Assembly (NCBI GenBank): GCA_950097225.1
Contig: CATNCE010000012.1
Span: 1-41,655 of the forward strand
Origin: an uncultured Bacilli bacterium
GTDB lineage: Bacteria > Bacillota_I > Bacilli_A > RF39 > UBA660
DNA: 41,655 nt
Reading direction: 5' to 3'
Part shown: positions 11,814 to 14,186 of the stretch, in pieces
How positions within the stretch are numbered: the stretch's first letter is position 1
Layout of the letters: every line of letters starts with the position of its first letter
The notes under the pieces: generated by a model
What the model was told of the DNA's origin: nothing
Seen by the model: the letters and a program-made list of their open reading frames with translations, nothing else
Databases searched by the model: none
Position numbers and translations under genes: made by a program

Positions 11814-11893
11814 ATGGAGTTAAATTGTTTGGTGTCTACTTTTAGTTTATCATTACAAAGTGTGTCAAATTGTTCCTTTTTTCAACAAGCCTC

Positions 11894-11939
11894 TTGATTT
11901 TTCGGGGGGGGGTATGATTAAATTATAGTAGGTTATAAT
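11894..11939 (+). promoter_or_regulatory. Promoter region with 9-G homopolymer (candidate phase-variable switch)
   Basis: A run of nine G (11904-11912) sits between a -35-like TTGATT (11894-11899) and a -10-like TATGAT (11913-11918), giving a 13-nt spacer. Most promoters recognisable in this window have a 17-nt spacer, so the present length would be poorly active and about 13 G would give 17. A second -10-like TATAAT is at 11934-11939; with it the G tract ends at the upstream edge of, and overlaps, the expected -35 position. Either way, slippage in the tract would alter promoter geometry for the 739-aa surface protein. Which -10 is used is not known. Confidence 0.55.
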
Positions 11940-11966
11940 AGTTGTTTTTAACAAGGAGTAGTTAGT

Positions 11967-14186
11967 ATGAAGAATAAAGAATTACTAATATTTGGGCCAC
12001 TTGTTTTTTTGATAGTGGGATTTGCTGTAGTGCATACTAGTTTAGATGGACGAGGATCTATTTCTTTAGGATTTAATGAGAGAGATTTTGATGTGCGTTT
12101 TAGTAAAGCAGTCTTAAATGGTGAAGATATTCAGATATCTGATTCAGGACAGCGAATTTCTTTTTCCCAAAGTATTGATGATGTGACTTTAGAATACGAG
12201 ATTGAAAATAATAGTAGCAATTATGATGCCGATCTTGATGTCGTTTGTTCTTTAGATTATCAAGATGAAGAAATAACTATGACTAATACTCTTGATAAGG
12301 AAAGTGTTGCTGCTCATGATAAAACAAGTGGAAGTGTCAATGTTAAGATACCTTATTATCGATCTTTATATAATACGATAATAAAAGATGCTGTTGATGA
12401 TAATAAACCTAGTGAATTTGTAACTAGTTTAGCGGGAATAAATTATGGTGCTATTTCATCTGATACAAATGGTAAAGGGATATATAGACTAGCTAGTATG
12501 GAAGAAGAAGGGGATACACCTGTTTATTTTTATCGAGGGGATATTGATAATAATCATGTTCTTTATGCAGGATTTTGTTGGAAAATAGTTAGAACAACTG
12601 AGACAGGAGGAATTAAATTAGTATATAATGGAGAACCTTCAGAATCGGGAAGTTGTGCAAGTAATACAGGGGCTTCTTCGACGATTGGCTCTGATAGGTT
12701 TAATATATATAATTCAATTCCTTCTTATTCTGGATATATGTATGGTTATATTGGATATGAAAATAAGGGAATAGTTGAGAAACAAACGATGATTTTATCG
12801 CAAAGAGCTAGCAATATGACTGGTAAGGCATATGGAATAGGCGTCTCTTATAATAATGAGACAAAGAAATATTCACTCGATAATGTTGAATATTTTACTG
12901 ACGGAGATGATCCTTCTAAATTAGTTGGAAAGTATTCATATTTTTCTGATAATGCTAGTTACGGAGTAGATATAGTTCATTATATTACTAAAGTAGTTGG
13001 GGATATAGCATATTATTACGATATAGTTTTAGGTGAGAAATCTTCTTTAGATGTATTTGATAATTACTATTATATTAGACAATTTGCATCTAGTTATTCG
13101 ATAAATGAAGATGGGACGTTTACTTTAAATAATCCGATTCATGTAAGACCAGAAAATTGGTATGATGATTATTCTAAATATAATAATTGGTATGTTTGTG
13201 GTAATTTAGAAACGACTTGTGATAATCTTTATCAAATAAGAAATAATGAAACTATAATGTCAATGTTTCCTGTTGCGATGTATGCTGATGATTTTATTTA
13301 TGTGGATAATAATTTTCAACTTAAAGATCCGGTACTTGTGGATTGGAGTGATAATTATTCTAATCTTAATAGGTATCGTTATACTTGTTTAACTGGCACG
13401 GATAGTTGTTCAGATATTTATTATGTGTTTTTTGCTGATAATGATTATGTAGGAGCTTTTAAATATCATGATAATTTACACATAGAAGATATTCCTGAAT
13501 TAATTAATGAAAATAAGACTAACTCAACTATAAAGAGTCGTGTTGATGCTTGGTATGAACAAAATATATTGGGGAGGACTTTTTCTGATTATTTAGAGGA
13601 CACGGTGTGGTGTAATGATCGTAAACTTCTTAATGATAAAACTTGGTTTATCAATAATGCTCCTTTGAATTTTCCTTCTTTAGAGTATAATGCTATAAAT
13701 TATAAAACCTCGCCAACTGATGGATACAAGTGTTTTAACGTAAATGATTCCTTTACTGTTGATGCCAAAAATGGGAATGGGGCATTAAAATATCCGATAG
13801 GTTTACTGACTTCTAATGAGGTAACTTTTGCAGGAAGTGGAATTCTTAAACCTAATGATTCGTTTTATTTGCAAATAGGAGTATCGTGGTTTACTATGAC
13901 TCCATGGCATATTAAATTTTCTTCTAGTTGGAATATGTTAGAAGCCAAAAGTCTGGCTTTATATGCAGGTGGATACCTTGTCGATTATTCTAATAATGCA
14001 GGAAGCGGAATTCGTCCTTCTGTTTCATTAAAAAATGATGTTTTATATAGTAGCGGGGATGGAACGGGTGATAATCCATATGTGATTTCGGGATTAAGGG
14101 AACATAAAGATTATCCAAGTTCGGTTAATGTGACTTGTGATTTAAATATAAGAGCATTAGAAAGAAATGAATATGTTCTAAAATAA
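11967..14186 (+). CDS. Large membrane-anchored surface protein, paralog of the two right-edge proteins
   Basis: 739 aa. The N-terminal hydrophobic segment (residues 6-24) is followed without a clear cleavage site by a short beta-rich domain (ISLGFNERDFDVRF... to about 140) that parallels the first 150 residues of the proteins at 39421 and 41147, including a conserved segment on the pattern N-x-x-Y-D-A-D-x-x-V-x-C-S-L. It resembles TasA/camelysin-like matrix domains in layout, but that is only a suggestion. A long Tyr/Asn/Asp-rich middle contains several Cys pairs (CxxxxxTCDNL, CLTGTDSC) fitting an exported, disulfide-bearing protein. The C-terminus (SGIRPSVSLKNDVLY then GDGTGDNPYVI) resembles the end of FGE/C-type-lectin-like and DUF6273-type domains. 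No sortase signal is present. Expression may be switched by the G tract upstream. AAGGAG precedes the ATG. Confidence 0.7.
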   Translation: MKNKELLIFGPLVFLIVGFAVVHTSLDGRGSISLGFNERDFDVRFSKAVLNGEDIQISDSGQRISFSQSIDDVTLEYEIENNSSNYDADLDVVCSLDYQDEEITMTNTLDKESVAAHDKTSGSVNVKIPYYRSLYNTIIKDAVDDNKPSEFVTSLAGINYGAISSDTNGKGIYRLASMEEEGDTPVYFYRGDIDNNHVLYAGFCWKIVRTTETGGIKLVYNGEPSESGSCASNTGASSTIGSDRFNIYNSIPSYSGYMYGYIGYENKGIVEKQTMILSQRASNMTGKAYGIGVSYNNETKKYSLDNVEYFTDGDDPSKLVGKYSYFSDNASYGVDIVHYITKVVGDIAYYYDIVLGEKSSLDVFDNYYYIRQFASSYSINEDGTFTLNNPIHVRPENWYDDYSKYNNWYVCGNLETTCDNLYQIRNNETIMSMFPVAMYADDFIYVDNNFQLKDPVLVDWSDNYSNLNRYRYTCLTGTDSCSDIYYVFFADNDYVGAFKYHDNLHIEDIPELINENKTNSTIKSRVDAWYEQNILGRTFSDYLEDTVWCNDRKLLNDKTWFINNAPLNFPSLEYNAINYKTSPTDGYKCFNVNDSFTVDAKNGNGALKYPIGLLTSNEVTFAGSGILKPNDSFYLQIGVSWFTMTPWHIKFSSSWNMLEAKSLALYAGGYLVDYSNNAGSGIRPSVSLKNDVLYSSGDGTGDNPYVISGLREHKDYPSSVNVTCDLNIRALERNEYVLK

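Follow-up and report, generated by a model that had tools for sequence, protein, structure and literature searches.

A poly-G tract in a promoter spacer as a candidate phase-variation switch of surface proteins in uncultured gut relatives of the Mollicutes

Homopolymeric promoter tracts in known systems and at this locus

In Neisseria meningitidis, the surface-protein genes porA and fetA carry homopolymeric G or C tracts in their promoters. The porA tract lies between the -35 and -10 elements, and tracts of 11G, 10G and 9G give, respectively, high, intermediate and low amounts of PorA (PMC3639595); fetA expression likewise depends on tract length (PMC13293289). Poly-G tracts of about 7-11 residues are also found in the promoters of the Treponema pallidum surface-protein genes tp0126 and tpr, and in tp0126 the tract is placed between -35 and -10 with an optimum at 17 nt of total spacer (PMC7864442). 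In the Mycoplasma hyorhinis vlp family of surface lipoproteins, each gene has its own length-variable promoter homopolymer and the family is displayed in combinatorial ON/OFF patterns (PMC10502178). Finally, the Mycoplasma mycoides vmm surface protein is controlled by a simple repeat in its promoter spacer (PMC10502178, PMC2628566).

The locus described here belongs to a low-GC relative of the Mollicutes and lies in a window of 41,655 bases, by which we mean the whole stretch of DNA analysed. As the preliminary description had reported, a run of nine G is present between the hexamers TTGATT and TATGAT, which stand 13 nt apart (Table 1); TTTC at 11900-11903 separates TTGATT from the tract. The rarity that had been claimed for this run was confirmed: no other run of G or of C in the window exceeds 5, the next longest G run being of 5, and a first-order Markov model predicts 0.0125 runs of G9 or more per window. 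The gene behind it encodes, again as described, a 739-aa protein with an N-terminal membrane anchor. The tract is very probably the spacer of a sigma-A-type promoter acting as a phase-variation (contingency) switch, the putative promoter being delimited by the bracketing TTGATT and TATGATTAAAT.

Table 1. Features of the putative promoter and of the gene behind it (window positions)
Feature	Position	Strand	Remark
TCTACTTTTAGTTTATCATTAC box, 22 bp	11835..11856	+	common to several other cassette copies
Upstream arm of the cassette, ACAAAGTGTGTCAAATTGTTCCTTTTTTCAACAAGCCTC	11857..11893	+	kept in 6/7 copies, diverged in C28
TTGATT, -35-like hexamer	11894..11899	+	invariant in 7/7 cassettes
T run, T5 in the window promoter	11898..11902	+	a further spacer homopolymer of variable length; T6 in five copies
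G9 tract in the promoter spacer, candidate slippage switch	11904..11912	+	read from the sequence; alignment of copies
TATGATTAAAT(T) block holding the putative -10	11913..11924	+	TATGATTAAAT invariant in 7/7 cassettes
Candidate -10 hexamer TATGAT	11913-11918	+	spacer 13
Candidate -10 hexamer TTAAAT, TGA before it	11918-11923	+	spacer 18
Candidate -10 hexamer TAAATT	11919-11924	+	spacer 19
TATAAT of the preliminary description	11934..11939	+	34 nt from TTGATT; no conservation in the six other copies
Ribosome-binding site AAGGAG	11953..11958	+	read from the sequence
Surface-protein gene, 739 aa	11967..14186	+	ATG at 11967; N-terminal membrane anchor, then beta-rich domain

In the proposed mechanism, slipped-strand mispairing would add or remove Gs, and perhaps Ts of the adjoining T5/T6 run. 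Such a change would shift the distance between TTGATT, as -35, and the -10 within TATGATTAAAT, and the altered spacing would change how much mRNA is made for the 739-aa protein. With the cassette placed before seven members of one surface family, each could be switched independently and the population would show combinatorial surface variants. We infer that tract length changes within a population and acts on transcription.

The known systems differ from this locus in several respects. The porA and fetA genes are single-copy outer-membrane-protein genes of a Gram-negative pathogen, whereas here a multi-copy cassette is found, with as many as dozens of copies in relatives. T. pallidum is also a pathogen, with far fewer such loci, and in tprL it is the -10 region, not the spacer, that the tract overlaps. 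The M. hyorhinis vlp system is probably the taxonomically nearest precedent, but its tracts are poly-A and concern a handful of genes in one pathogen species, and vmm has a dinucleotide repeat before a single gene. Assignment of the window gene to the Vlp proteins themselves was considered and rejected: its tract is poly-G and its product has no Pfam match. The likeness to Vlp would be one of working. The mechanism is known from porA, fetA and Vlp; the lineage and the scale are what appears to be new and unreported in uncultured gut relatives of the Mollicutes, no report of a poly-G promoter device in these bacteria having been found in the open-access papers searched.

Cassette copies in the genome and the proteins behind them

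The genome (1.61 Mb in 58 contigs, of which the window is one) was searched by pattern and through extracted stretches. Six runs of G9 or more were detected, at C1:28151, C1:44748, C1:58257, C2:76520, C12:11904 and C28:16576, where 0.48 would be expected, and all six are at the equivalent position of a single conserved promoter cassette of the form TTGATTTTT(T)C-Gn-TATGATTAAAT. A similarity search revealed a seventh copy at C3:56612-56691, in which the tract, at C3:56632, is interrupted (GGGAGGGG); two further G8 runs of the genome, at C1:133606 and C13:14257, fall outside the cassette. When the seven copies are aligned, the core CTTGATTTTT(T)C-Gn-TATGATTAAAT differs in length only, as T5/T6 and G8/G9/G10, and shows no other change, the six copies other than that of the window carrying G9 (four copies), G10 (one) and GGGAGGGG (one). 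An upstream arm (ACAAAGTGTGTCAAATTGTTCC...) is common to six copies. The preliminary description had proposed to look for other poly-G tracts ahead of surface genes in this genome; the outcome is these seven cassettes, all located before anchored proteins.

Exact or near copies of the TCTACTTTTAGTTTATCATTAC box occur at C28:16632 and C1:58174 and a partial one at C1:44666; C1:39350 and C8:19300 have the box as well, with no G tract. The C28 copy of the box abuts a two-ORF IS3-like transposase, and TCTACTTTTAGTTTATCATTAC is possibly an insertion-sequence end or an operator. An IS30-like transposase (C3:56820-58010) lies just upstream of the sole copy with an interrupted tract; this interruption may have locked that switch. 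These transposases, beside the C28 and C3 copies, are the only mobile-element genes seen near the cassettes.

The seven products, predicted to be surface-exposed from their N-terminal anchor, belong to one family and are encoded by genes of 410 to 2156 codons. They share an anchor of the type VILSVLxLVIGFAAVTTTLVLNG followed by a common N-terminal domain, after which the outer parts differ. Pfam detected DUF285 leucine-rich-like repeats in four of them (C1:28219, C1:58326, C2:74700 and C3:54999); the 2156-aa protein contains thirteen Listeria-Bacteroides repeats and carboxypeptidase-regulatory-like domains. No Pfam domain was found in the 410-aa protein or in the 739-aa window protein, and no NCBIfam domain in the latter. 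The beta-rich domain of the 739-aa protein is common to many paralogues, and its extracellular part is also present in a GH3-domain paralogue (C1:39651) without poly-G; its nearest relative, at 43% identity, is the C23:8535 paralogue, also without poly-G. The surface family has many more members in the genome, and none of 16 inspected loci has the tract. A weak PDB match of the 739-aa protein to a surface-anchored protein (5a0g, E = 0.016) vanished when a profile was used, and its AlphaFold model (mean pLDDT 47) is too poor for a fold search.

The near-identity of the first ~160 codons in three cassette genes, the transposases adjoining two copies and the many contigs of relatives that end near a cassette could also indicate a hot spot of recombination or mobility, either through gene conversion among near-identical 5' ends or as an insertion-sequence target. 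We give this explanation almost no credence: no transposase is seen beside most copies, any repeated sequence is liable to break contigs, and tracts placed between -35 and -10 are met again where the flanks are unrelated.

Promoter geometry and spacer length

Several paralogues without poly-G have promoters that read approximately TTGTAA-18-TACAAT; the -10 falls within TATGATACAAT or TATGATAAAAT, and the TATGATTAAAT block of the cassettes resembles this extended -10 block (TATGATAAAAT / TATGATACAAT, with TAAAAT/TACAAT at about 18 nt). In such an alternative register, the window spacer would be of 18 nt (TTAAAT after TGA) or 19 nt (TAAATT), and would range from 18 to 20 or 21 nt over the seven copies, which matches the value commonest in 58 other genomes. 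In one relative (G101), the hexamer right after the tract varies (TATGAT, TATATT or TATAAT) and a conserved TACAAT stands 8 nt past the tract, giving 19-20 nt; in two others (G110 and G341), the spacer to TATAAT is of 17-18 nt. TATGAT is a better hexamer than the candidates of the alternative register. Taken together, the comparison points to a -10 register other than TATGAT, and the three candidate registers of Table 1 are kept. The TATAAT further downstream, which had been put forward as a second -10, is indeed present, but the other copies do not conserve it. In several of the paralogues without poly-G, a second conserved promoter region was also observed, TTGACAAAATACTACACCATAAT followed by TTGTAA-18-TACAAT, which is perhaps a constitutive or regulated alternative.

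The preliminary description had taken the spacer as 13 nt and deduced a promoter near-off at G9 and optimal at G13. This calibration is not supported, as the alternative register gives 18-20 nt, in agreement with the relatives; with the usual spacer of 18-20 nt, a tract of G9-G10 would more likely be near its optimum or at an intermediate level than OFF. Its wider proposal of a phase-variable promoter before a surface protein stands apart from that ON/OFF scale, and is supported by the poly-G spacer itself, the seven copies, the sister species, the pattern in the family and class, the restriction of length variation to homopolymers and the enrichment in exported products.

The relation between tract and spacer was analysed in the relatives. 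In 71 TTGACA promoters of the taxonomic family, tract length was correlated at -0.52 with the fixed part of the spacer, and their sum was tighter than in shuffles. When one promoter per genome was taken from 58 genomes, the spacer had a mean of 18.5 nt and fell at 17-20 nt in 55/58; the variance of the sum was 1.18 vs 1.92 after shuffling of tract length and fixed part (p = 0.002), in a set for part of which the search pattern limits the spacer to about 21 nt. It is thus the spacer, and not the tract, that is held near 18-19 nt. Tract length compensates the fixed part and therefore fits the role of a spacer. Among copies with near-identical flanks, in this genome and in relatives, the tract ranges from 8 to 14: one genome (G020) has near-identical cassettes with G9-G14 and another (G162) has TTGACAATACCACCCT-Gn-TANNNT with G9 (12 cases), G10 (11) and G11 (2). 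Single-anchor exported proteins are encoded by 70/105 of the ORFs behind tracts vs 120/597 in the background (odds ratio 8, p = 1e-20), export having been called by a simple hydrophobicity rule and the p value being optimistic because related promoters are not independent.

These data also bear on a reading in which the G tract does not slip and is a fixed structural or operator element, i.e. a stiff spacer or a site for a shared regulator that marks a surface regulon. The conserved cassette of ~90 bp, with its upstream arm retained in 6/7 copies, would fit a regulon; the assembled tracts are fairly uniform, mostly G9-G10, as those of a fixed-length element would be; and the paralogues without poly-G own a separate conserved upstream motif. 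We nevertheless consider a fixed element improbable: the G tract persists in sister species and in other genera whose flanks are different, tract length varies from copy to copy as given above, and a regulator site would not require that this length compensate the rest of the spacer. As regards the favoured phase-variation switch, the genome encodes MutS (C3:81968) and a MutL-like protein (C1:73008, named from sequence), and slippage would therefore occur at a moderate rate, that of a mismatch-repair-proficient cell, and not at an extreme one.

Distribution of poly-G promoters in relatives and beyond

Of the eight other species in the genus, none has the window's own cassette, and five gave no tract in a search for G8 or more. 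In a sister species with a 1.3-Mb genome (G002), 62 such tracts were counted in the list of matches, mostly as GCAACT-Gn-TGCAATACAAT. An anchored protein was found behind 19/20 of the tracts fetched, most of these proteins being of the window protein's family, and the 21 cassettes with conserved flanks carry G8 (eight), G9 (twelve) and G10 (one). This genome holds the densest set of poly-G promoters that we met. In another sister species (G006), a third cassette, TTGCAAAAC-G8/9-TATGTT, precedes the same protein family as the window gene. The first search pattern missed the cassettes of both G002 and G006. Thus, from one sister species to another, the promoter sequence changes, and the poly-G device is retained together with the protein family behind it.

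In the taxonomic family, 114/386 genomes match TTGA-N4-20-G8-N0-3-TANNNT, a pattern that undercounts, G002 scoring zero with it. About 800 matches were obtained vs 17 for the reversed control (table tally, overlapping matches counted), and as many as 43 tracts are found in a single genome (G162). Many of the latter lie before short anchored proteins of one family with the motif LINSKDVVYEDNSNLAADNVQDAIDGTC and have near-identical -35 halves. At the level of the class, a stricter pattern was matched in 42/395 genomes with no match of the control; a phylum-level draw, which held only the same class, gave 30/392 genomes, again with a control of 0.

Class-wide, canonical TTGACA and TATAAT bracket the tract, and the start codon is typically located about 20-50 nt past the -10. 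This arrangement, together with the almost empty reversed-pattern control, argues against a tract situated in the mRNA leader and acting after transcription, as the G-repeat of Helicobacter pylori tlpB read by the small RNA RepG. Length-variable G-repeats in leaders are known in H. pylori (PMC8295292), but such a role is very unlikely here. Poly-G can also arise by chance or as an artefact, and two-colour instruments can yield false poly-G calls. The recurrence observed in independent assemblies is decisive on this point: both flanks are conserved at hundreds of loci, drawn from numerous assemblies and projects, and the position and orientation of the tract are specific against a chance expectation below one per genome. 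The probability of an artefact is accordingly negligible.

Among named genomes, matches were obtained in uncultured Bacilli, Tenericutes and Mollicutes MAGs from rabbit, reindeer and other guts, and further ones in Lachnospiraceae, other Clostridia, Selenomonadaceae, Streptobacillus notomytis, Candidatus Nanosyncoccus and a Treponema MAG. In the viral collection, the window's own cassette gave chance-like matches only, the sole one with a G run reading GGGG, and the general pattern gave four matches among 2.9 million contigs; these promoters are therefore not a phage feature.

On this basis, these commensals probably switch many of their surface proteins randomly between on and off, as is known of some pathogens. 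We lean, with some reserve, towards a broader proposal: that in uncultured gut relatives of the Mollicutes, and in scattered Lachnospiraceae, Saccharibacteria and Streptobacillus, much of the surface proteome is under independent poly-G switches, tens per genome, that the gain and replacement of cassettes outpace those of the protein families behind them, and that the spacer is tuned to 18-19 nt and not 17. If this is true, commensals would own some of the largest known phase-variable repertoires. A 2025 review asked, as an open question, why only pathogens seem to have genomes with many phase-variable loci, and proposed database bias (PMC11868660). The present counts in one family of uncultured gut-type bacteria, namely as many as 43 poly-G promoter tracts in one genome and 62 G8+ tracts in the sister species, mostly before surface proteins, bear on this question. 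The succession -35, Gn, -10 also provides a simple rule to search for switchable surface genes in the genomes of unculturable bacteria, in which the presence of a gene need not equal its expression.

Some further arrangements were observed during the scans. In the Streptobacillus notomytis isolate, several TTGACA-Gn-TATAAT promoters were found, many before signal-peptide proteins. Rabbit-gut Bacilli MAGs contain arrays of secreted proteins (MKNLKMFAIAVMAFAVMATGVHA...), with one poly-G promoter each. In a genome of another family (G784, contigs C2 and C4), TTGAC is followed by unusually long tracts, of G13 to G21, before TATATT or TAATCT.
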